Positions 2,558-32,464 of a stretch of 32,464 nucleotides of DNA are shown piece after piece; positions within the stretch are counted from its first letter, which is position 1, and each line of letters begins with the position of its first letter. Under the pieces are notes generated by a model, which did not search any database, had not been told where the DNA came from, and saw nothing but the letters and a program-made list of their open reading frames with translations. The translations under genes were made by a program, and so were the position numbers. Location of the stretch: contig SVRB01000004.1 in NCBI GenBank assembly GCA_015065045.1, forward strand, positions 1 through 32,464. The letters are read 5' to 3'. The DNA is from Oscillospiraceae bacterium. GTDB lineage: Bacteria; Bacillota; Clostridia; Oscillospirales; CAG-272.

Positions 2558-4216
2558 TTATTTTATTGAGTCAGGTGCTATTCCCAGTGCTAAAGCTATA
2601 TAGAATATCGCAACAGTAATGATTGCGTAGATAAGCATCGGTATAACGTTTATCTTTATTATTTTACCCTCTTTACCGCTAACGCCGATGGTTGCGCTTG
2701 CAGCAACAGCGTTGTTTATGCATACCATATTACCGATGGCAGCACCCACACACTGCATGGAAACGATAAACGCTGTAGGTAGGCTTAATACTGTTGCCGT
2801 ATTGAACTGAAGGTTGGTAAATAGGTTCATGGACACGGTTGCCGAGCCCGAAACGAAAGCTCCGAGAATTCCGATAAACGGTGAAATAAATACGTACAGC
2901 TCCTTACCGACAGCCGCTAGAGCCGTTGCCATTTGATCCATCATACTGATTCCGTCAGCGTTCTTGTATTTCATAACTTCAACAAGAGCAAGACCGAACA
3001 GAAGCGCTAATGCCGCGCCGGATATTTGTTTAACGGTATCCTTCCACGACTGCTTGATTTTCTTGCCGTCCATTTTGTGAATAAAGTTTGTGATCAGAGC
3101 AACCAAGATAAAGAACGTACCCGGAAGGTAAGCCCATTTAAGAGTCCAGTTAAGGTTTTCAAATCCCAAGATTTTATTTATACTAACAACAAAAGGAGCT
3201 TTTGTAGTAAGAAGAGTTTTTATTCCAAGCTGTGGAATTCTTGTGACTACAAGAATAATTGCAATCAAAACGTAAGGAATCCAAGCTAATAACAATGACA
3301 TTTTTGATTCAGTAACGGGAGTGACCTTGGTAGTTGCGCGCCATTCATCATTCCACTCGGCAGGATCTCCAAAATCCCACGTTTTTTTGGGAACGAGAAA
3401 TCCGTTTTTAGCCGCAATAACCGTTGTTACCAACGAAATCAACGATGCCAAGAGAGATGCGAATTCATAGCTAAGCAACGTTGAAGTAAGAACAAGCGTT
3501 ACTGAGAACGATATACCTGTAAGCAAAGCAAAGGGGGCAGCTTCAAGAGCGGGCTTGAATGACTTTTCTTCGCCGAACATTTTTGTTGTGATCATAAGCA
3601 CTATGAGGGGAAGAAGGATTCCCATAACCGCATGAGGAATTGTTGTCCAAAGAGAGAACTGTGAAACAAAAGCTTCATCGCCTCCAAGACCTAAAAGGTT
3701 CAAGCCTGCAGTTACAGGAGTACCTACAGCTCCGAATGAAACGGCTGTAGAGTCAAATACAAGAGTAATTACAGCGGCAGCCATCGGTGGAAATCCCAAG
3801 CATACAAGCAAAGGACCTGCCAAAGCCGCGGGAGTTCCAAATCCTGCAGCGGATTCAATAAACGAACAGAAGCAGAAGCCGATTATACAAGCCTGAACGC
3901 GCTTGTCGGGACATATTTTCATAAATCCGCGATTTATAGCAGCAGTAGCGCCCGATGCTTTCAAGGTGTTCATAACCAGTATAGCGCCCAAAATGATGAT
4001 CAATACTTCGATCGAACTCAGCATACCGTACAGTGTGCCGGCAAGTAGTGCCAAAGCCTCTATATCAAAAAATATAAAACCAAATAATACTGCCATTACA
4101 AGAGAAATAAGCAAACACCATTTTGCAGGCCAGTTAAAGACCATCATAAGAACAAGTGTTGCTAAAATGGGGAGAAATGCTAATAAAGCCAACATATTAA
4201 CCTCCGATATACGCAC
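2558..4216 (-). CDS. lldP: L-lactate permease family transporter
   Basis: 552 aa multi-[38 protein letters not shown] signature of LldP/LctP. Confidence 0.9.
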
Positions 4217-4625
4217 CCATTTTGTTGAAAAATGTTTTTAAAAAGAAAAAATCCTAATGATAAGTCGTTTTTTAAAGAAAAAACTTAATAAAAATAAGTA
4301 TATTTATGTTATTATTAATATATTTAAGTTGCAAGGTCATTATATCACTTAAAAAACAATATGTCAACCACATTTATCAGCCATCTAAGCTAATAAATTG
4401 CTTGTTCTTATATATTTATTTATAAATGTGGGCGTAAAATAGTAATATATCGTCGTATTACCGTCAATTTATAGTGTAAATTACGGAATATATATTGAAT
4501 TCTCGGCTTTTTTATGGTATATTTAAACGAGCGTATGTTTAAATTATTATAGTCAAATTATATGATGATTGAATAAAATGACAGAAGATATAGACTCAAT
4601 ATGGTTTTTAAGGGCAGGGATGTTT

Positions 4626-5573
4626 ATGAAAAAGAAAATAACGATCATTGGAGCAGGCGCAGTAGGTGCCACGACAGCGTACGCACTTCTTGCAAGAGGT
4701 GCTGCATCCGAGATAGTTCTTATAGATATAAATACAGAAAAAGCGCTTGGCGAAGCTCTTGATATAAGACAGGCTACACCGTTTTTGGAAAACTGTGATA
4801 TATATGCAGGTGATTACGTTGACGCTAAGGATTCTGACGTTGTTATTATTACGTCCGGCATCGGAAGAAAACCCGGACAGACACGTCTTGAGTTAGTACA
4901 GACAAATGTAAAGATAATCGAGAGTATCTCAGCTCAGATTACAAAGTATGCGCCTAACGCTATATATATTCTTGTGGCGAATCCGGTTGATATACTTACT
5001 TATGCATTTTTGAAGTACACGGGATTGCCGAAAAGACAGGTATACGGAACCGGAACGGTTTTGGACACAAGCCGTTTGCGTACACGTTTGGCTGAGATAT
5101 ATGACGTAAATAAGCAGCAGGTTTATGCAAACGTACTCGGAGAACACGGTGATACGTCTTTTGTTGCGTGGTCTTCGGCTACTATTGCGGGTGTTCCGAT
5201 TGATGAGTATCCCAAATCTATTGCAACACCTAACAGAGTTATACCCGAGTATAGTCGCGAAGATGTAGAGGAGTACGTTAAGACTTCGGGCAGTAAGATC
5301 ATTGCTCGTAAGGGCTGTACGGTATATGCTATTGCAACTGCAAGCTCGCATATTGTAAAGGTTATTGCGGGTGACGCTCAGACAGCGTTGACAGTATCTT
5401 CTCTCCACGAGGGAGAATACGGTATCAAGGATGTTTGCTTGAGTTCGCTTTCTCTTGTGGGAGATGACGGTGTAAATTCAATAATTACACAGCCTTTGTC
5501 TGACGAGGAGCTTAAGAAGCTTTACGCCTCTGCCGAAGCCTTGAAGGCAGTTATTCGCGGAGTTGGTTTATAA
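4626..5573 (+). CDS. ldh: L-lactate dehydrogenase (NAD-dependent)
   Basis: ITIIGAGAVGATTAYALL Rossmann motif, LGEHGDTSF active-site motif; start may also be ATG 4620. Confidence 0.92.
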   Translation: MKKKITIIGAGAVGATTAYALLARGAASEIVLIDINTEKALGEALDIRQATPFLENCDIYAGDYVDAKDSDVVIITSGIGRKPGQTRLELVQTNVKIIESISAQITKYAPNAIYILVANPVDILTYAFLKYTGLPKRQVYGTGTVLDTSRLRTRLAEIYDVNKQQVYANVLGEHGDTSFVAWSSATIAGVPIDEYPKSIATPNRVIPEYSREDVEEYVKTSGSKIIARKGCTVYAIATASSHIVKVIAGDAQTALTVSSLHEGEYGIKDVCLSSLSLVGDDGVNSIITQPLSDEELKKLYASAEALKAVIRGVGL

Positions 5574-5581
5574 TATATGTC

Positions 5582-5622
5582 AAAAACAAAAGGAGATTCG
5601 ATAGAATCTCCTTTTGTTTTTG
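5582..5622. terminator. Rho-independent terminator (bidirectional)
   Basis: CAAAAACAAAAGGAGATTC...GAATCTCCTTTTGTTTTTG. Confidence 0.75.
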
Positions 5623-5659
5623 TGAATACTTTTGCAGATTAGTAATCTTGCTGCAACGG

Positions 5660-5790
5660 TGCCTTCCCCTCGAGGAGAAGGTGTCACGAAGTGACGGATG
5701 AGGTGTATTTTGTCTAAGTGAGAATTTTTAGTGTTTGGGGAACCACCTCACCACCCGCTAACGCGGGAGCCTCCCCTCAAGGGGAAGCCT
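5660..5790. repeat. MITE-like intergenic element with imperfect terminal inverted arms
   Basis: Arms TGCCTTCCCCTCGAGGAGAAGG..GATGAGGTG and CCACCTCACCACC..CCTCCCCTCAAGGGGAAGCC are inverted copies; each arm also folds into two hairpins. Confidence 0.6.
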
Positions 5791-5968
5791 TTTGTTTGAA
5801 TTTTTACTTGACGAAAGAATTTTGCAATAATGTTAGTCGCATTTGTGGTGGTAGGGCAGATTTACAAGTATCTAATGTTTCAAAGGCTTTCAGTCGCAGA
5901 GCAAATAACCGAAATTGCTGGTGATCCCGATTATTATATGACAGAGAAATATCCAATAAACAAAAAAG

Positions 5969-5997
5969 TTGACGGTTATGTGTGAGTATAGTATAAT
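5969..5997 (+). promoter_or_regulatory. SigA-like promoter for the aldo/keto reductase gene
   Basis: TTGACG-17 bp-TATAAT. Confidence 0.65.
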
Positions 5998-6049
5998 ATA
6001 ATATACGTAGTGTATTTATAGAGAAATTTTTAGAAGCAGAGGATATTTT

Positions 6050-7144
6050 ATGTTTGAGAAAATAAAGCGTAATTTTGGTTTTGGCTGTATGCGTCTGCCA
6101 ATGAAGGACGGAGACGTAGACAGAGCTGAATTCATCCGAATGATAGATGCTTTTATGGAGGCGGGATTTAACTATTTTGATACGGCTCACGGATATATCG
6201 GCGGAAAAAGCGAAAAGGCTATTCGCGATTGTCTGACTTCACGCTATGACAGAGAGAGCTACGTATTGGCAAACAAAATATCCGATTGGCTTTTTAAAAC
6301 TGAAGAAGAGGTGCGTCCTCTGTTTGATTTGCAGCTTGAAATATGCGGTGTGGAATATTTTGATTTTTACTTATTCCACGCGCTTAGCAGCAAGTCGTAT
6401 GCAAAGCATAAAGATTGCAATACGTTTGAGATCGTTAAACAGCTGAAACGAGAGGGAAAGGTAAAGCATATTGCAATATCTTTTCACGATACTGCAGACG
6501 TTTTGGATATGATACTGACCGAACAGCCGCAGATAGAGGCAGTTCAGTTGCAGATAAATTATCTCGATTATGATGACCCGACAGTGCAGAGCAAAAAGTG
6601 TTATGACGTAGCGGTTAAACACGGCAAAAAGGTAATTGTTATGGAGCCTGTAAAGGGTGGAGCTTTGGTAAATCTTCCCGACGAGGCGGTTAATGAATTT
6701 AAGGCGTTAAGCGATGACGCTCCCGTTTCTTATGCATTAAGATATGCGGCAAGCTTTCCTGAGGTGTTTATGGTCCTCTCGGGTATGGGCAATATGGAAA
6801 TGATGGAATCGAATATCAAGACGATGTGTAATTTTGTTCCTCTTAACTCGAGAGAAATCGAAGCAACCGACCGAGCGCGAGAGATTATTCGTAAATATAG
6901 ACAGATTCCGTGCACAAAATGCAATTATTGCGCAGAGGTGTGCCCTAAGAGTATTCCTATTTCCGAATTATTTGCGGTGTATAATGAATATGCCTTAGCG
7001 CACGTCTCAAGAAAGGATACGTCAAGTCAGTTGTCGGCATTTGACGTTAAGGTAACCGATTGTATTGAGTGCGGAAAATGCGAACATATATGTCCGCAGA
7101 ATATTGCTGTTAGAGATCATTTCAAGAAGATTGCAAAGGTATGA
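6050..7144 (+). CDS. Aldo/keto reductase with C-terminal 4Fe-4S ferredoxin-type domain
   Basis: FGCMRLPM, FDTAHGY AKR motifs; C-terminal CTKCNYCAEVCP and CIECGKCEHICP. Confidence 0.9.
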   Translation: MFEKIKRNFGFGCMRLPMKDGDVDRAEFIRMIDAFMEAGFNYFDTAHGYIGGKSEKAIRDCLTSRYDRESYVLANKISDWLFKTEEEVRPLFDLQLEICGVEYFDFYLFHALSSKSYAKHKDCNTFEIVKQLKREGKVKHIAISFHDTADVLDMILTEQPQIEAVQLQINYLDYDDPTVQSKKCYDVAVKHGKKVIVMEPVKGGALVNLPDEAVNEFKALSDDAPVSYALRYAASFPEVFMVLSGMGNMEMMESNIKTMCNFVPLNSREIEATDRAREIIRKYRQIPCTKCNYCAEVCPKSIPISELFAVYNEYALAHVSRKDTSSQLSAFDVKVTDCIECGKCEHICPQNIAVRDHFKKIAKV

Positions 7145-7147
7145 TAT

Positions 7148-7180
7148 AAAAAATCCCCCGTATATTCGGGGGATTTTTAT
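7148..7180. terminator. Bidirectional rho-independent terminator
   Basis: AAAAAATCCCCCGTATATTCGGGGGATTTTT between convergent genes. Confidence 0.75.
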
Positions 7181-8920
7181 TTATCCTTGGTCAGTATATA
7201 CACTGTAGCAGTATGCGCCTACGGGGAAACGTTCGTCAGAGCTTTCCTCAATAATGATCCACAAAAACATATTTCCAAATTCCAATCTTCCTTTTATACC
7301 ACTTTCGTTAAAGACAAATACACCATCCTCTGCGTGCGCTGTAATTTTCAAAAAGGATTCAGTGGTGTTGTGTAACATGTAGTTATCTCTATCGGGGTCG
7401 GGATAGTAGTATGTAAAGGTATATCTGAAATTGACGTCCATTTGTGTGTCTGTTACGTTTTCAAAGTTTGCGTAAGTATAGCTATACGAAAGTTCTTTTC
7501 CGGTGGTTCTTTCCATATTAGCGTGTTTGCGCCAGGTTTGGTTTATACCGGATTTTACAAGATCCTCTGTTGTTTTAGTCAAAGGAGTATAGGTTATTCC
7601 GGATATGTTCCTGGTATGCTCGTAGGCTTTAAAGGGCTCAGGATAACAGAAGTAGTCATTATAATATATTTCCATTGACTCCTCATAGGTGATTAGTTCG
7701 GTCTTTCCGTCCTTTGTCAAATAGCGGTTGCCGTTTTTTGCTAATAAAATAGAATAAATATGATTGTAATCTCCGTTTTTTGTAAACTCGTACAGGCTGT
7801 GTTCCACTTCATTATATTCCACTTTGTCTACGTGGATAAGACCTTGGTCGTCAAGCCAGCAGGTCTCGTTTGAAAAAGCAGCCAACATTACAGGGGTACC
7901 GTTCTTTTTTGTGAATATGGCTTTAATACGGTAATCCTCATTCATAAGAATCAGTTCGTCTTGACCATCGCCGTTAAGGTCGATCTCGTCATATCCAACG
8001 TAGTAATGATCGCAATAAGAACCATACAAAAGAAGGTTGTAGTAATCAAATGCAACGTCATCAGGGAACGAAAAGAGATTATCATAATTACCTCTGGTCC
8101 ATTCTGTTGTATCAAATTTATCCAGACAGGTAGAGATTGACTTGTAGGTATTAAGGATATTTGAGTAGCTGGAGAAATCCGCTACAGGCAGATTTTTGTT
8201 TGTTTTATTGTCTGCCAGAGGGAGATGGATTCGAGGAGCGGATAATTTGAAATCGGAGTATCCCAGTTTGTTAGCCTTATCATATTCTCGAATAAGCTCA
8301 TCGTAAGTTTGCTCGTCAATTATAATACGTTTGCCGTTAACTATCTGAAACAGTTCAAGAATTTTACTCTTCTCAGCGTCGCGGACTCTACCGTAAACAG
8401 AGTCGTATGCCATTTTATCTCCGTCTACGCGGCAAGTATAAAATGTGTTTTCTACAATATTACCGTTTTCAGAGCTACGCACCATAAAAAAACGGTTTCT
8501 TGGGGCGAAATAAATTATGTCACCAGAGTTATTGTTAGCTTCCAACAAGATCGGCTTTCCGTCAGAAATAGTGAATATACCTTGAATAAATGTGGATTTT
8601 GTCATAAGAAGTAGTTCAAGAGTACCGTTGCCATCCATATCTTTATATCCATATCCCATATTATAGGCGCCTTCCGCACTTCTGCAGGAATTGACGATAC
8701 CGTGGAGAGTTTTTGCAATTTCAGCTTCGCGTTTGTCCATGCCTTTTGTGTCAAGCTTAGGTAATTCCTCACCGTTATATTTTGCGGTCAGAAGCTCTGT
8801 GTATTGAGAGATTATATCATCGTATAATTCTTTGTCGGAAACTTGCTGAGGCTTCTGCTTACAGGAAACTACCGATAAAAGCAGACATAAACAGATGGTG
8901 ATAAATAAAGTTTTTTTCAT
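7181..8920 (-). CDS. Lipoprotein with two DxxGDGxxEL-type calcium-binding-like motifs (paralog A)
   Basis: Signal peptide with lipobox LSVVSC; DMDGNGTLELLLM and DLNGDGQDELILM motifs; paralogous to 8979-10721. Confidence 0.75.
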   Translation of the reverse strand: MKKTLFITICLCLLLSVVSCKQKPQQVSDKELYDDIISQYTELLTAKYNGEELPKLDTKGMDKREAEIAKTLHGIVNSCRSAEGAYNMGYGYKDMDGNGTLELLLMTKSTFIQGIFTISDGKPILLEANNNSGDIIYFAPRNRFFMVRSSENGNIVENTFYTCRVDGDKMAYDSVYGRVRDAEKSKILELFQIVNGKRIIIDEQTYDELIREYDKANKLGYSDFKLSAPRIHLPLADNKTNKNLPVADFSSYSNILNTYKSISTCLDKFDTTEWTRGNYDNLFSFPDDVAFDYYNLLLYGSYCDHYYVGYDEIDLNGDGQDELILMNEDYRIKAIFTKKNGTPVMLAAFSNETCWLDDQGLIHVDKVEYNEVEHSLYEFTKNGDYNHIYSILLAKNGNRYLTKDGKTELITYEESMEIYYNDYFCYPEPFKAYEHTRNISGITYTPLTKTTEDLVKSGINQTWRKHANMERTTGKELSYSYTYANFENVTDTQMDVNFRYTFTYYYPDPDRDNYMLHNTTESFLKITAHAEDGVFVFNESGIKGRLEFGNMFLWIIIEESSDERFPVGAYCYSVYTDQG

Positions 8921-8978
8921 GATATTTCCTCTCTTTCGTCTGTTGTATAGACAAAATATTAGTTATGTCTTTTGTTTG

Positions 8979-10721
8979 TTATGTTATAATGATGTTCTTA
9001 AAGTTTTTATAAAAGGAGTGAGCGCCTACGGGGAAACGTTCGTCAGTGCTTTCCTCAATAATGATCCACAGATATGCATTTCCAAATTCCAATCTTCCTT
9101 TTATACCACTTTCGTTAAAGACAAATACACCATCCTCTGCGTGCGCTGTAATTTTCAAGAAGGACTCGGTTTTATCCACCAAGTAGTAATTGTCTTTGTT
9201 GGGGTCGGGATAGTAGAAGGAAAAGACGTATTTGAAATTCATACCCAACTGTGTGTCGGTTGCGTTTTCAAAGGTTACATAGGTTGAACTTTTTGCGCCA
9301 GACTTTCCGGTGGCTTCTTCCATATCGGATCCATTGTACCATGTTTCCTCAAATCCTGCCTTAACTATATCATCTGTTATTTCAGTAAAAGGGGTATAGT
9401 TTAATTTTGATACGTTTCTGGTCTGCTCGTTTGGATCTAAAATTTCGGGATAACAGAAAAATATATCTTTATATTCCAACGACTCCTCAAATGTAACAGG
9501 TTTGGTCTTGCCATTTTCGGTATAATAGCGTTTGGTTTCTGTAATAAGAAGTGAATAAAGAAGATTATAGTCACCGTTTTTTGTAAACTCGTATATGCTG
9601 TATTCCAATTCAGTGCCGTCATTGCGATCTACGTGAATAAAGCCTTGTTCATCAAGCCAACAGGCTCCGCGAAGAAACGCGTCTACTAATACAGGCACAC
9701 CGTTTTTTTGAGTAAAAATAGCTTTAATGTTGTAATTCTCAGTCAAAAGAACCAGTTCGTCCTGTCCGTCACCGTTAAGGTCGATTTCGTCATATCCTAA
9801 AAATAAGTCTTTACCATAAGCACCGTATATGAGTCGGTTGTAGTATTCAAAAGATAGGTCATTTGGGAATGTAAATAGGTTGTCATAGACACCATTGATC
9901 CAGTTGAGATAACTGAAATCATCTACACAAGTAGAGATTGTTTTGTAGGTCTTGAGAATTGCGGAGTAGCTTGAGAAATCTGCTACCGGCAGATCTATAT
10001 CTGTATCGTTATTTACCAAAGGAAGATAGATGCGAGGAGATGATAATTTGGAATAAATATAACCCGGATTAGTAGCCATACCATATTCTTCATACAGTTC
10101 ATCGAAGGTTTCTTCGTCAATTATAATACGTTTACCGTCAACAATTTGGAATGTTTCAGTAGTTTGTTTTTTCTCTCTGTCATAGATCGCACCATAAACA
10201 GAGATGTATTCCATTTTATCTCCGTCTACGTTGCAAGAATAAATTGTATTTTCTTCGATGCTGCCGTTTTCTATTGAACGCATTATATAAAAATGATTCT
10301 TTCGAGCGAAAAATATGATGCCGTCGGGTTCGTAGTTAGCTTCCAATAAAATCGGCTTTCCGTCCGAAATGGTGAAGATAGCTTTAATGGTTGTATATTT
10401 TGTCATAAGAAATAGCTCCGGTGTGCCGTTGCCATCCATATCCTTATATCCATATCCCATATTATAGGCAGATTTCTTGTCTTTACAAGCGCTGACAATA
10501 CTGTGGAGAGTTTTTGCAATTTCAGCTTCGCGTTTGTCCATGCCTTTTGTGTCAAGCTTAGGTAATTCCTCACCGTTATATTTCGCAGTGAGAAGCTCGG
10601 TGTATTGAGAGATTATATCATTGTATAATTGTTTGTCAGGAACTTGCTGAGGCTTCTGCTTACAGGAAACTACCGATAAAAGCAGACATAAACAGATGGT
10701 GATAAATAAGGTTTTTTTCAT
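8979..10721 (-). CDS. Lipoprotein with two DxxGDGxxEL-type calcium-binding-like motifs (paralog B)
   Basis: Lipobox LSVVSC; DMDGNGTPELFLM and DLNGDGQDELVLL; near-identical N- and C-terminal segments to paralog A. Confidence 0.75.
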   Translation of the reverse strand: MKKTLFITICLCLLLSVVSCKQKPQQVPDKQLYNDIISQYTELLTAKYNGEELPKLDTKGMDKREAEIAKTLHSIVSACKDKKSAYNMGYGYKDMDGNGTPELFLMTKYTTIKAIFTISDGKPILLEANYEPDGIIFFARKNHFYIMRSIENGSIEENTIYSCNVDGDKMEYISVYGAIYDREKKQTTETFQIVDGKRIIIDEETFDELYEEYGMATNPGYIYSKLSSPRIYLPLVNNDTDIDLPVADFSSYSAILKTYKTISTCVDDFSYLNWINGVYDNLFTFPNDLSFEYYNRLIYGAYGKDLFLGYDEIDLNGDGQDELVLLTENYNIKAIFTQKNGVPVLVDAFLRGACWLDEQGFIHVDRNDGTELEYSIYEFTKNGDYNLLYSLLITETKRYYTENGKTKPVTFEESLEYKDIFFCYPEILDPNEQTRNVSKLNYTPFTEITDDIVKAGFEETWYNGSDMEEATGKSGAKSSTYVTFENATDTQLGMNFKYVFSFYYPDPNKDNYYLVDKTESFLKITAHAEDGVFVFNESGIKGRLEFGNAYLWIIIEESTDERFPVGAHSFYKNFKNIIIT

Positions 10722-10952
10722 GATATTTCCTCTCTTTCGTTATTGCCGTTTTCATAGTTATGGTAACATAAAAATACATAATGGTCAAGGATTTCACATT
10801 ATGAAACAAAGTTAAAACAACAGTGAAAATGGTAATATATTATTATCTTAGAAGTCTTTCTATTTATTAGACGAAGTTTTTTACAAAAACTCTCAGTAAA
10901 TTTTATATTTTTTAAAATTATTCCGAGAAATTATGCTACCATTGCAGAATAA

Positions 10953-10981
10953 TTGACATTATGTGCATTCCATGTTACAAT
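10953..10981 (+). promoter_or_regulatory. Consensus SigA-like promoter for the NhaC-family gene
   Basis: TTGACA-17 bp-TACAAT, followed by GAGAGGA RBS and ATG 11022. Confidence 0.75.
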
Positions 10982-11021
10982 AAAAAAGATGTAAATTCAC
11001 GTCTTTGAGAGGAATAAATAT

Positions 11022-12329
11022 ATGAAAAAAGGAAATATATTGGCACTTTTGCCGGTTGGCGTTTTTATTGTGCTATATTTAGGATTAGGAATTACCTTTG
11101 AGTATATTTTGAAGATTCCTATGGGGTTTTATAAGATTCCAATTGTGGTAATCTTTTTGGTGTCGCTGCTTGTGGCTTGTCTGCAAAACAGAGAAAAAAG
11201 CTTTGAGGAGAAGCTGTCTTTGATGGGGCAAGGCGTGGGAGATAAGAATATTATCACCATGCTGCTGATTTTTCTAATGGCAGGTGTTTTCGTAGGTGTG
11301 ATCGGGAGAAACAGCGCCGAGAGCGTTGCTTATTTTATGCTGTCTATTGTTCCGCCTCGATTTGCAGTTTGTGTAATATTTATCGTTAGTTGTTTTGTTT
11401 CCACTGCTATGGGTACCTCAGTGGGAACCATTTCGTTGCTTACTCCAATCGCAGTAGCGATTTCAACGACATCAGGATTTTCCCTGCCGCTTTGCGTAGG
11501 TACAGTTATGGGCGGTGCTATGTTTGGCGATAATCTGTCATTCGTTTCTGATACCACGATTGCTGCCTGCAATGGTCAGGGATGCGCTATGAAGGATAAG
11601 TTCCGAACGAATTTTGCTATCGTCCTTCCTGCCGCCATTGTAACGCTTGGACTTATTCTCGTATTTTCTTTGCAGGCGGATATTCAGCCTCTGGAAAAAA
11701 TGTCTTATAATCTCGTTCAGATCATTCCATATCTTTTGGTGTTGATCGGAGGTATTATCGGAATTAACGTGTTTGTTACCCTTTTGATTGGTATCGTAAC
11801 AGGATGCGTGATCATGCTGGGGACGGGTGCTGTGGGCTTCATCTCGCTTCTTGAGAATATGGGTGACGGTGTTTCGGGTATGTTCGAAACCTCGATGGTT
11901 GCCATATTGGTGGCGGCACTCTGCGCTCTGATTCGCGATGCGGGCGGCTTCCAGTCTTTACTCAACGGCATACGTCGTGTGTTCCGCGGTAAAAAAGGCG
12001 GACAGTTAGGTATTGGGCTGCTTGTTGGAATGATGGATATTAGCACTGCCAACAATACGGTAGCAATCGTAATGGCAAACCCCATTGCCTCGGAGATGGC
12101 GAAGGAGTACAATATTTCTCCCAGAAAGACTGCATCGATCCTCGATACTTTCTCTTGCATATTCCAGGGCATTCTGCCTTACGGTGCGCAGATGCTGGTA
12201 GCGCTGTCTGCGGTTAGCACGATGGGATTAAAGCTTGGAGCTTTTGAGGTGATTTCTTACCTGTTCTATCCTATGATGCTGCTTCTCAGCTCTCTGGTGT
12301 TTATGTTCCTCATTCCCGATAAAAAATAA
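11022..12329 (+). CDS. NhaC-family Na+/H+ antiporter-like transporter
   Basis: Multi-TM; STAMGTSVGTISLLTPIAVAIS...GGAMFGDNLSFVSDTTIAA motif of the NhaC family. Confidence 0.85.
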   Translation: MKKGNILALLPVGVFIVLYLGLGITFEYILKIPMGFYKIPIVVIFLVSLLVACLQNREKSFEEKLSLMGQGVGDKNIITMLLIFLMAGVFVGVIGRNSAESVAYFMLSIVPPRFAVCVIFIVSCFVSTAMGTSVGTISLLTPIAVAISTTSGFSLPLCVGTVMGGAMFGDNLSFVSDTTIAACNGQGCAMKDKFRTNFAIVLPAAIVTLGLILVFSLQADIQPLEKMSYNLVQIIPYLLVLIGGIIGINVFVTLLIGIVTGCVIMLGTGAVGFISLLENMGDGVSGMFETSMVAILVAALCALIRDAGGFQSLLNGIRRVFRGKKGGQLGIGLLVGMMDISTANNTVAIVMANPIASEMAKEYNISPRKTASILDTFSCIFQGILPYGAQMLVALSAVSTMGLKLGAFEVISYLFYPMMLLLSSLVFMFLIPDKK

Positions 12330-12350
12330 CGAAAAACTTATAGAATAAAT

Positions 12351-12382
12351 AAAAACGGAAACCGAAAGGTTTCCGTTTTTTT
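12351..12382. terminator. Rho-independent terminator
   Basis: AAAAACGGAAACCGAAAGGTTTCCGTTTTTTT. Confidence 0.8.
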
Positions 12383-12383
12383 G

Positions 12384-12428
12384 CGGCTTGAACCAGCAAT
12401 GCTCTTCCTGAAACAATGGTCGAAACGT
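12384..12428. repeat. Short interspersed repeat, copy 1
   Basis: CTTGAACCAGCAATGCTCTTCCTGAAACAATGGTCGAAA resembles 16668-16706. Confidence 0.5.
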
Positions 12429-12456
12429 GTGTTTGAATATTACAACAAAAAACAAA

Positions 12457-12489
12457 GGCTGAATCAAGTACAAGTAACTTAATTCAGCC
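12457..12489 (-). terminator. Rho-independent terminator for the minus-strand dehydrogenase gene
   Basis: GGCTGAAT..AAGT/ACTT..ATTCAGCC hairpin followed on the minus strand by TTTGTTTTTTG. Confidence 0.65.
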
Positions 12490-12496
12490 AAAAAAA

Positions 12497-13618
12497 TTAT
12501 TTTTCCCAAGGGAATACGTATTGCGTAAGCTTAAGCTCGTCACGCACCATATTCAGTTCTTTTTGAACTGACGCGTTTATCGGAACTCCACCTTTGCGCG
12601 CAAGTCTTATTTCATACTCTTTTTCGCCCGCGGTATATATTCTGTCAGCGCCGGGAGCTTTCTTAGCAGCTCTCATGCTGCGTGTGATTTCACCTGCTTT
12701 TTTACGAGCTGTTTCTTCGCCCATAAAATGCTCAGTATCAATAGCTATAAACCAGTGGCCAAGGTTGTAATGACGGCGATTACCGTTTTCGTCTCTGCCG
12801 CTTAAAGCCTTGCCGTACGCTCCGTCTTGCAAAATGGATGCCATAAACTCAACAGCCATAGCAAAGCCATAACCTTTATATCCGCCGAGAGTTTCACCTA
12901 TTCCGCCTAAAGTGGTAAGCGCCGCAGTACCGCCGTTTATTCTCTTAATAGCTTCTCCTGCGTTGCCCTCTACAGCAGAGCCGTCATCAGCTACTACTGT
13001 TCCGACAGGCACGTTTTCGCCTATACGCTCATAATATTCAAGCTTGCCGTTCTGTGTAATTGATGTTGCGCAGTCAAAGTTAAAATCAAAAGCTTCGTCG
13101 GTAGGTACGCCGATTGTAAAGGGATTCGTACCGAACATACCCTCAACACTGTTTGTCGGAGCAACAGTGGGACGCGCGTTTGTTCCCGTCATACCGATAC
13201 AGCCTGCCTTTGTCGCCATTGAGGAATAATATCCTGCGATACCGTAATGGCAAGAGTTACGTACAACGACCATGCCCATTCCATATTCTTTGGCTTTTGC
13301 AATAGCCATACTCATAGCCTTGTGTCCGATTACTTGTCCCATACCGTGATGTCCGTCAATAACGGCAGTAGTCGGAGTTTCTTTTATTATTTCAATTTCT
13401 GTAACTGCGTTTTGAATACCCGCTTTGATTCTGTCAAGATATACGGGCTTAAATCTGTTTACACCGTGCGATTCAATTCCTCTTTTATCTGCTTCGAGAA
13501 GTACGTCGGCGCATATTTTTGCATCTTCTACAGGGATACCGTATCCCACAAATGCGTCTGTAACAAAGTTCGTAATTGTCTCCCAATCTACGACTATCGT
13601 TGAATTGTTTTTCGCCAT
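12497..13618 (-). CDS. Ldh family oxidoreductase (type-2 malate/L-lactate/ureidoglycolate dehydrogenase family)
   Basis: ADVLLEADKRGIESHGVNRF, VVVRNSCHYGIAGYYS, GYKGYGFAMAVEFMASIL signatures. Confidence 0.88.
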   Translation of the reverse strand: MAKNNSTIVVDWETITNFVTDAFVGYGIPVEDAKICADVLLEADKRGIESHGVNRFKPVYLDRIKAGIQNAVTEIEIIKETPTTAVIDGHHGMGQVIGHKAMSMAIAKAKEYGMGMVVVRNSCHYGIAGYYSSMATKAGCIGMTGTNARPTVAPTNSVEGMFGTNPFTIGVPTDEAFDFNFDCATSITQNGKLEYYERIGENVPVGTVVADDGSAVEGNAGEAIKRINGGTAALTTLGGIGETLGGYKGYGFAMAVEFMASILQDGAYGKALSGRDENGNRRHYNLGHWFIAIDTEHFMGEETARKKAGEITRSMRAAKKAPGADRIYTAGEKEYEIRLARKGGVPINASVQKELNMVRDELKLTQYVFPWEK

Positions 13619-18869: not shown

Positions 18870-18945
18870 TGGTCTAAGTGACTGGACTTGAACCAGCGGC
18901 CTCTACCACCCCAAGGTAGCGCTCTCCCAGCTGAGCTACACCTAG
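18870..18945 (-). tRNA. tRNA-Pro (anticodon GGG)
   Basis: Acceptor CTAGGTG/CACTTAG, anticodon arm CTACC-TTGGGGT-GGTAG, T-arm GCTGG-TTCAAGT-CCAGT, encoded CCA. Confidence 0.93.
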
Positions 18946-29827: not shown

Positions 29828-30082
29828 TACTTTTAGATAACACGTTGACGAAAACCAGTAGGTAAAGGACTAACTCTTTCAGAGAATTGCCGTATAGGTG
29901 CGAGGCATAAGAGTGGGATTACTGAATTCATTTCCGAGTGGCTTGTTTGAACTTTTTAGTAGGACAAGACGGGGAAGCACCCGTTATAGTGCAAGGGTCT
30001 AAAAAATTCGGATCTATGAGAACCAACTGAGGTGGTACCACGGGATAAACTCGTCCTCTGCAATTATAATTGCAGAGGACTT
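29828..30082 (+). promoter_or_regulatory. T-box leader, predicted tRNA-Phe responsive (specifier UUC at 29927-29929)
   Basis: AGTA at 29857 opposite GAA-TTC-A at 29924-29930; T-box TGAGGTGGTACCACGGG at 30028-30044; terminator GTCCTCTGCAATTATAATTGCAGAGGAC plus T-tract at 30053-30085. Confidence 0.92.
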
Positions 30083-30149
30083 TTTGTTTTTGTTAAGCCT
30101 TATTGATTTTAATAGGTTTGTACAAATGAGTTGGAGGATATTAGAAATT

Positions 30150-31457
30150 ATGGAAAGGTATTATCAACCCGAAATTGAAAAAGCACCAAGAGAAACTATC
30201 GTAAAATTACAGAATGAACGCTTGGTGAATACTGTAAAAAGAGTTTATGAAAACGTTTCCCATTATCGTAAGAAGATGGATGAATCCGGAATAAAACCCG
30301 AGGATATAAAGAGTATCGACGATTTATACAAGCTCCCGTTCAGCTACAAGCAGGATCTTCGCGATACTTATCCTTACGGTATGTTTGCTGTGCCTATGAA
30401 GGACGTTGTAAGACTTCACGCATCGAGCGGAACCACTGGCAAACAGATAGTTGTTGGATATACTGAGAATGACCTTGATTTATGGAGTGACTGCTGCGCA
30501 AGAGCATTGACAGCGGCGGGCTGCACCGAGGAGGATAAGGTTCACGTTTCTTACGGATATGGACTGTTTACAGGTGGACTTGGCGCAGATGCAGGTTCAA
30601 AAAAGGTTGGAGCTGTTACTATTCCCGTATCGAGCGGTAATACGCAAAGACAGATCACAATTCTCAGAGATTTCGGCTCGACGATTCTTTGCTGTACACC
30701 GTCTTACGCTTTACATATGGCAGAAACGTTGTATGCTCAAGGATATACTAAAGATGATATAAATCTTAAAGCAGGTATATTCGGAGCAGAGCCCTGGACA
30801 AATGAAATGCGTCAGCAGATAGAAGAAATGCTCGGAATAAAAGCTTATGATATTTACGGTTTGACAGAGATAATCGGTCCCGGTGTTGGTTTTGAATGTT
30901 CAGAACAGTCTGGTATGCACATAAATGAAGACCACTTTATAGTTGAGGTGATTGACCCCGACACAGGAGAAGTGCTTCCCGACGGCACACAGGGTGAGCT
31001 TGTTTTTACTTGCATTACGAAAGAAGCGTTTCCGATTATTCGCTATCGCACAAGAGATATCGGAGTTATTACAAGAGAAAAATGCTCTTGCGGAAGAACG
31101 CTTGTTAAGATGACAAAGCCTCGCGGCAGAACAGACGATATGCTTATTATCCGCGGTGTAAATGTGTTCCCGTCACAGATAGAATCTGTTCTCATCGAAA
31201 AGGGTTATACCGCAAACTATCAGATAGTTGTTGACAGAGAAAATAACTTTGACAGTATTGAGGTTAGAGTTGAATTGAGCCCTGAAAACTTCCGTGATAC
31301 TATTAAGGGACTTGATAAGCAGGCTAAGGAACTTTCGGAAGCTTTGAAGGTTGTACTTGGACTTAATGCTCACGTTAAGCTTATGGAGCCCAATTCTATT
31401 CCTCGTTCCGAGGGTAAAGCTGTACGAGTTATTGACAAGCGTAAGCTTTTAGACTAA
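30150..31457 (+). CDS. paaK: Phenylacetate-CoA ligase
   Basis: RLHASSGTTGKQIVVGYT, YDIYGLTEIIGPGVGFEC, RTDDMLIIRGVNVFPSQIE; GGAGG RBS. Confidence 0.93.
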   Translation: MERYYQPEIEKAPRETIVKLQNERLVNTVKRVYENVSHYRKKMDESGIKPEDIKSIDDLYKLPFSYKQDLRDTYPYGMFAVPMKDVVRLHASSGTTGKQIVVGYTENDLDLWSDCCARALTAAGCTEEDKVHVSYGYGLFTGGLGADAGSKKVGAVTIPVSSGNTQRQITILRDFGSTILCCTPSYALHMAETLYAQGYTKDDINLKAGIFGAEPWTNEMRQQIEEMLGIKAYDIYGLTEIIGPGVGFECSEQSGMHINEDHFIVEVIDPDTGEVLPDGTQGELVFTCITKEAFPIIRYRTRDIGVITREKCSCGRTLVKMTKPRGRTDDMLIIRGVNVFPSQIESVLIEKGYTANYQIVVDRENNFDSIEVRVELSPENFRDTIKGLDKQAKELSEALKVVLGLNAHVKLMEPNSIPRSEGKAVRVIDKRKLLD

Positions 31458-31479: not shown

Positions 31480-31908
31480 ATGATAAAACAGTTATCGGTA
31501 TTTCTTCAAAATAAATCGGGCAAGATCGCTTCGGTTGTAAATACACTTTACGAAAACGGAATAGATATCCGCGCGCTTTCTATTGCGGACACCGCTGATT
31601 TTGGAATTTTGCGTATGCTTGTAAACGACGTTGAAAAGGCAAGAGCCGCTTTGGCAAAGGAGAACTGCATTGTAAGCGTAAACGAAGTAGACGTTGTTGC
31701 TGTTCCTGACAAACCGGGAGGCTTGGCGGAGGTTTTGAAAAAACTTTCGGCTGCCCAGATAGATATTGAATATATGTATTCACTTATCGACAGAGGAACA
31801 GACGACGCGTATATGGTGTTCCGTTTATCAGACGAGGCGAACAGCTTTGGAGCGTTACAGGCAAACGGTATTGTTACCGTTCCCGGAGAAGTGCTCGGAC
31901 TTAAATAA
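31480..31908 (+). CDS. Tandem ACT-domain protein
   Basis: KQLSVFLQNKSGKIASVVNTLYENGIDIRALSIADT...VVAVPDKPGGLAEVLKKLSAAQIDIEYMY. Confidence 0.9.
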   Translation: MIKQLSVFLQNKSGKIASVVNTLYENGIDIRALSIADTADFGILRMLVNDVEKARAALAKENCIVSVNEVDVVAVPDKPGGLAEVLKKLSAAQIDIEYMYSLIDRGTDDAYMVFRLSDEANSFGALQANGIVTVPGEVLGLK

Positions 31909-31932: not shown

Positions 31933-32464
31933 ATGCAGGAAATGAGCAGAAAAACAAAGCATTTTACCGATTCTGTCATACGCCGTATGACAAGAATCGC
32001 TATTGCAAATAACGCGATAAATTTGGCGCAGGGCTTTCCGGATTTTGATCCGCCGAAGGTTTTGACAGACAGACTTGAGGAGATAAGCCAGATAGGCCCT
32101 CACCAGTATCCGATTACTATGGGAGCGCCCAATTTCAGACGTGCGCTCGCTGAAAAATGCGGTCGTTTTATGGGCAGAAAGATTGACCCTGAAACCGAGG
32201 TGGTTGTTACTATAGGTTCTACCGAGGCTATGGTTGATACTCTTTTTGCTATCACAAACCCCGGTGACAAGATCATTATGTTCTCTCCTTATTTTGAGAA
32301 CTACCGCGCGCAGACGCTTCTTGCTGACTGTGAACCTATATTCGTTCCCTTGATCCCCCCTGCATTCAATTATGATGCAAACGTGCTTGAGGATGCGTTT
32401 AAAAAGGGAGCTAAGGCTATACTTATCTGTAACCCCTCTAACCCCAGCGGTAAGGTGTTTACAG
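31933..32464 (+). CDS. PLP-dependent class I/II aminotransferase, 5' part (runs off window)
   Basis: Hand translation MQEMSRKTKHFTDSVIRRMTRIAIANNAINLAQGFPDFDPPK...GSTEAMVDTLFAITNPGDKIIMFSPYFENY...CNPSNPSGKVFT. Confidence 0.92.
   Translation, partial: MQEMSRKTKHFTDSVIRRMTRIAIANNAINLAQGFPDFDPPKVLTDRLEEISQIGPHQYPITMGAPNFRRALAEKCGRFMGRKIDPETEVVVTIGSTEAMVDTLFAITNPGDKIIMFSPYFENYRAQTLLADCEPIFVPLIPPAFNYDANVLEDAFKKGAKAILICNPSNPSGKVFT

Follow-up and report, generated by a model that had tools for sequence, protein, structure and literature searches.

A phenylalanine-type T-box before a paaK-ACT-aminotransferase operon in an Oscillospiraceae genome: probable origin from a tyrosine-type leader and probable role in phenylalanine supply

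Aromatic amino acids can be built from arylacetates, a route known from methanogens, which use a CoA ligase and an indolepyruvate:ferredoxin oxidoreductase (IOR), and from rumen bacteria, for which a passage of PMC7356843 cites Allison 1965 on the formation of phenylalanine (Phe) from phenylacetate. A biosynthetic role was proposed for AMP-forming ligases whose genes adjoin those of IOR (PMC13285125). The direction in which clustered CoA ligase and IOR genes work in gut anaerobes is still debated. Changing the tyrosine (Tyr) specifier UAC of a T-box to the Phe codon UUC is a classic laboratory experiment. Specificity changes of T-boxes are known, and a Tyr T-box of the Bacillus cereus group has evolved to read Phe (Wels et al., 2008, PMC2494555). 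A literature search found no paper that connects T-boxes to indolepyruvate or phenylacetate-CoA ligase genes; the main T-box surveys of 2008-2009 and supplementary tables lay outside this search, so that an earlier listing is possible, and a search for Ruminococcus together with arylacetates gave nothing direct; the parts are known, and the regulon was not found in the searched literature. Here we describe such a locus in the window, i.e., the whole stretch of 32,464 nucleotides analysed, which is the complete contig C113 of a draft genome of 1.40 Mb (G000; 137 contigs, 80% complete). We consider it probable that a Phe-reading T-box on paaK-ACT-aminotransferase raises the supply of Phe by salvage of phenylacetate, following the loss of a gene block and a change of the specifier from UAC to UUC in this lineage, with VorABC carrying out the carboxylation if this step still runs. 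The locus comprises the following features, with coordinates given in the window.

29836-30061, forward strand: T-box leader (RF00230; cmscan, full model)
29850-29860, forward strand: 5' side of the specifier loop, with helix GAAA (29850-29853), ACC and S-turn AGUA (29857-29860), read from the sequence
29881-29885, forward strand: AGAGA element, read from the sequence
29924-29934, forward strand: 3' side of the specifier loop, with GAA (29924-29926), UUC (29927-29929), A (29930) and helix UUUC (29931-29934), read from the sequence with the register taken from synthetase leaders
30022-30057, forward strand: antiterminator with the T-box bulge UGGU (30033-30036), from the Rfam alignment
30053-30085, forward strand: intrinsic terminator hairpin (30053-30080) and U run, from sequence and fold
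30150-31457, forward strand: putative PaaK-type AMP-forming arylacetate-CoA ligase, 435 aa (TIGR02155; AMP-binding_C_2)
31480-31908, forward strand: paired ACT-domain protein, 142 aa (PF19571 ACT_8, 80 bits)
31933-32463, forward strand: class I/II aminotransferase, truncated by the contig end (PF00155)

A preliminary description of this DNA had called a T-box at 29828-30082, and the covariance-model scan agreed: RF00230 matched at 29836-30061 on the forward strand over its full model (1-219) with 120.9 bits (gathering threshold 93) and an E value of 1.6e-26, which excludes a chance match. The leader was recovered again by a search of the whole window genome, in which nine T-boxes were found, and the mechanism is therefore in general use there. 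As in other T-boxes, the UGGU bulge lies in an antiterminator that excludes the terminator at 30053-30080; the region 30022-30092 folds with -24.9 kcal/mol (z -4.0), and folding of stem I by itself gave no useful signal (z +1.7). The blocks TGACGAAA and AGTA are invariant across six aligned leaders. UGGU pairs with ACCA, i.e., with the discriminator A73, as present in bacterial tRNA-Phe and tRNA-Tyr. The leader would thus act as a transcriptional riboswitch reading the anticodon of tRNA-Phe: the CCA end of the uncharged tRNA is predicted to pair with the bulge and to stabilise the antiterminator, so that paaK, the ACT gene and the aminotransferase gene are transcribed, while with charged tRNA-Phe the terminator would prevail.

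The specifier had been placed at UUC (Phe), 29927-29929, by alignment with the well-known glyQS leader. Because a codon assigned by position alone may be off by one base, the register was tested on tRNA-synthetase leaders with the canonical AGUA from this and related genomes, whose genes were identified by reading the proteins downstream, applying the rule that the codon is followed by one base and then by the stem I helix. The correct codon was the top call in all 13 canonical-stem-I synthetase leaders (valS GUC, two; thrS ACC, two; pheS UUC, four; tyrS UAC, four; alaS GCU, one), and the window leader, reading GAA-UUC-A-UUUC against GAAA-ACC-AGUA, carries UUC at exactly the position proposed. 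Three further leaders received no call from the script and stand outside the 13, namely the window genome's own pheS and serS leaders and one ileS leader; read by eye, the ileS leader shows AUC-A-CCCC. The own pheS T-box (G000:C108:3885-4128, L005) departs from the canonical stem I and lacks AGUA, though UUC-G-CUUC is legible in it by eye. Ranking codons by the G+C content of the stem I helix was discarded, as it gave shifted triplets (TCC, TCA, ACC) where the helix has five pairs; in line with the synthetase controls, codons were called from the innermost helix, which gives UUC or UAC. A shifted register would turn the specifier into UCA (Ser) or AUU (Ile), both of which overlap the site, and the +1 triplet remains UCA or UCC, both Ser, in the relatives. 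Such a shift is hardly credible, since the synthetase leaders fix the register, the congeners differ at the middle base of the UUC/UAC column, and the UGGU bulge requires A73, whereas the discriminator of bacterial tRNA-Ser is G73. A Trp specifier (UGG) was looked for in the arylacetate-operon leaders of the window genome and its relatives and none was seen.

The operon that had been proposed downstream of the T-box, consisting of paaK, an ACT gene and an aminotransferase gene, was borne out by the profile matches to TIGR02155, PF19571 and PF00155. PaaK matches TIGR02155 over the full model with 564.3 bits, and its substrate is uncertain because this score is below the equivalog cut-off of 646.3; the product is best called PaaK-like, and an arylacetate substrate, as suggested by the family, is not certain. 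The aminotransferase fragment is 93% identical to the full-length copy in the related locus L011 and matches the class I/II family, with no substrate class given by the profiles. Between the window genome and its closest congener (G038), dN/dS amounts to 0.042 for paaK, 0.028 for the ACT gene and 0.004 for the aminotransferase gene, the last being the most conserved of the three (99.4% identity over 176 codons); this strong purifying selection shows that the genes are in use.

Elsewhere in the window, a tRNA gene lies at 18873-18945 on the reverse strand (RF00005, 60 bits), whose loop resembles the anticodon GGG and which is probably a tRNA-Pro gene. A lactate cluster at 2558-13618 contains an L-lactate permease and two kinds of lactate/malate dehydrogenase, with an Na+/H+ antiporter-family protein nearby, and two adjacent genes on the reverse strand (7181-8920 and 8979-10721) encode proteins of 579 and 580 aa with zero Pfam matches.

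Related operons were collected from the 80 loci with the closest paaK genes and from 59 relatives searched as whole genomes. The majority of the paaK loci in this sample have no detected T-box, and paaK often lies right next to iorAB. Two arrangements with a T-box were found. In the first, the T-box precedes acsX, which encodes an AMP-forming acyl-CoA ligase, followed by an SSS-type symporter gene, iorA, iorB, paaK, the ACT gene and often the aminotransferase gene, some members being absent in some genomes; its codon is mostly UAC (Tyr), with UUC in L044 and before iorA-iorB-paaK of G041. In the second, paaK-ACT follows the T-box immediately, with UUC as specifier. Units with UUC occur in 16 genomes and all contain paaK, units with UAC occur in nine and all contain iorA, and no other specifier was found on arylacetate-operon T-boxes among the 80 loci and 59 genomes. 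Genome G022 has split arms, with UAC on acsX-iorA-iorB and UUC on paaK-ACT, which suggests that acsX serves a Tyr arm (4-hydroxyphenylacetate) and paaK a Phe arm (phenylacetate). On the PaaK tree the specifier changed at least five times, a count made without modelling gains and losses of T-boxes. In L221, L224, L225, L014 and relatives, iorA-iorB(-ACT) units are headed by another, more divergent paaK (46-56% identical), with no T-box detected before them; several of the genomes concerned also bear a Phe-T-box paaK. The strongest T-box of the set (L134, G026:C100:32604-32816; 156.6 bits) carries UAC (Tyr) and precedes a gene resembling SAM-methyltransferases.

This restriction to UUC and UAC fits a control of Phe and Tyr supply rather than catabolism. 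The anabolic direction that the preliminary description had proposed is supported accordingly, since control by starvation implies a supply role and the T-boxes of the relatives all read Phe or Tyr. Amino-acid fermentation is known to involve IOR and arylacetates (PMC13285125), and the operon could serve the fermentation of Phe to phenylacetate, or the breakdown or detoxification of phenylacetate; we regard this as very improbable, given that a T-box switches its genes on under starvation for its amino acid, that PaaK is of the AMP-forming type, which favours acyl-CoA synthesis, and that the Phe/Tyr specificity is preserved across lineages.

Within the genus, three congeners (G036, G037, G039) have UAC followed by acsX, the symporter gene, iorA, iorB, paaK, the ACT gene and the aminotransferase gene, while the window genome and G038 (97% complete, PaaK 94% identical) have UUC followed directly by paaK, the ACT gene and the aminotransferase gene. 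The leaders of the UUC pair and of the three UAC congeners are orthologous: they are 71-75% identical over about 315-320 bases, including an upstream promoter-like block, TTGACTTTA, and their specifiers occupy the same alignment columns and differ only by the middle base. The PaaK tree joins the two UUC species as sisters (SH-aLRT 98) and places them next to the three UAC species (98); both groups belong to a larger set of eight (97), of which L012, likewise with UAC, is a member. In G038, GGAGAATACAATG, which in G037 constitutes the ribosome-binding site and start codon of acsX, directly precedes the paaK start and is read as a deletion scar. From the full operon with UAC in three congeners, the orthologous leaders, the tree and the scar it follows that a UAC-controlled full operon lost acsX, the symporter gene, iorA and iorB and became UUC-controlled in the window lineage; for the symporter, the loss concerns its place between T-box and paaK. 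The losses were tested by searches; as the genus genomes are draft assemblies and absence from G000 alone is weak evidence, the argument also rests on G038.

IorA, IorB and acsX were not found anywhere in G000 or G038. The IOR that the preliminary description had held to be needed is therefore missing from the window genome and from its closest congener, and the proposed check beside the window meets the contig end inside the aminotransferase gene. IorA and IorB are present in G036, G037 and G039, and one full-length IorA was found in each of the 15 other examined genomes with this paaK, a regularity which, together with the incompleteness and fragmentation of the window assembly, would speak for IorAB having been missed in assemblies of organisms that still run the full route from phenylacetate to Phe. 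We judge this quite improbable, however, because the almost complete G038 lacks the same three genes and because the block is gone from its ancestral place in both species, leaving the scar.

The ligase that the IOR route to Phe and Tyr calls for is represented by the paaK-like gene at 30150-31457. It probably activates scavenged phenylacetate to phenylacetyl-CoA, which a 2-oxoacid:ferredoxin oxidoreductase would reductively carboxylate to phenylpyruvate and the aminotransferase would convert to Phe. The ACT pair is probably a sensor of an aromatic amino acid. Most relatives have IorAB as this oxidoreductase, its genes lying either within the operon or at another genomic site. In the window lineage this classic route is broken because IorAB is missing, and the carboxylation, if still running, is most likely catalysed by the genus-wide VorABC, the best remaining candidate. 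VorBAC is encoded in all five congeners (VorB 92-99% identical), and VorB of the window genome (G000:C120) matches NF005507 with 561 bits (cut-off 399). VorABC is not a specific replacement, however, since it is equally present in the congeners that keep IorAB. VOR-type enzymes can act on phenylpyruvate, which one archaeal VOR accepts at lower activity, and deletion of VOR in Clostridium sporogenes abolished phenylacetate formation (PMC13285125).

A prephenate dehydratase is present in G000, G036, G038 and G039, so Phe need not come from phenylacetate and salvage is not obligatory. Loss of this enzyme was considered as a possible mark of organisms that depend on salvage, but no clear link emerged: the enzyme is present in 47 of the 59 relatives, and the others vary in their paaK and IorA content. 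With the dehydratase in the window genome and G038, IorAB gone and the aminotransferase gene the most conserved of the operon, the Phe T-box might now serve the aminotransferase as last step of de novo synthesis from chorismate through phenylpyruvate, PaaK and the ACT protein being retained for a secondary function or for a different acid. This main rival appears unlikely in view of the strong purifying selection on paaK itself and of L013 and an 11-leaf clade of Phe-T-box loci, in which no homologue of this aminotransferase was detected by paaK and the T-box drives paaK-ACT. The reported activities of VOR, the retention of VorABC and the genes being in use lead us to prefer phenylacetate salvage with VorABC. 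In a stricter version, VorABC replaced the IorAB that was lost, and phenylacetate is still turned into Phe by PaaK, VorABC and the aminotransferase, controlled by a T-box that a single base change shifted from Tyr to Phe; acsX of the relatives, in the same version, is the 4-hydroxyphenylacetate-CoA ligase of a Tyr arm. We put this version forward tentatively, as a possibility less likely to hold than to fail.

Compared with known systems, the leader shares with tyrS- and pheS-type RF00230 leaders all landmarks, the transcriptional terminator and UUC or UAC in the canonical register, but it controls an arylacetate-CoA ligase operon. Three congeners and many relatives have clustered genes for CoA ligase, IorAB and aminotransferase, which resembles the arylacetate route of methanogens and rumen bacteria, whereas the window lineage is without IorAB. 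As in the Bacteroides IOR system with its AMP-forming arylacetate-CoA ligase, for which a biosynthetic direction was proposed (PMC13285125), the ligase gene of relatives adjoins the IOR genes; a T-box is unmentioned there, while here starvation control supports this direction. T-box codons, being encoded in the genome, offer an independent line of evidence on the direction and on the amino acid that each ligase serves, i.e., Phe for paaK and Tyr for acsX with iorAB. Like in the Bacillus cereus group, a Tyr T-box turned to reading Phe; there, this involved a duplication and a position before a transporter gene (PMC2494555), whereas here it took place in situ, before the same gene cluster and with the loss of four genes. 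The congener set also represents a natural counterpart of the laboratory change from UAC to UUC, tied to the loss of pathway genes.
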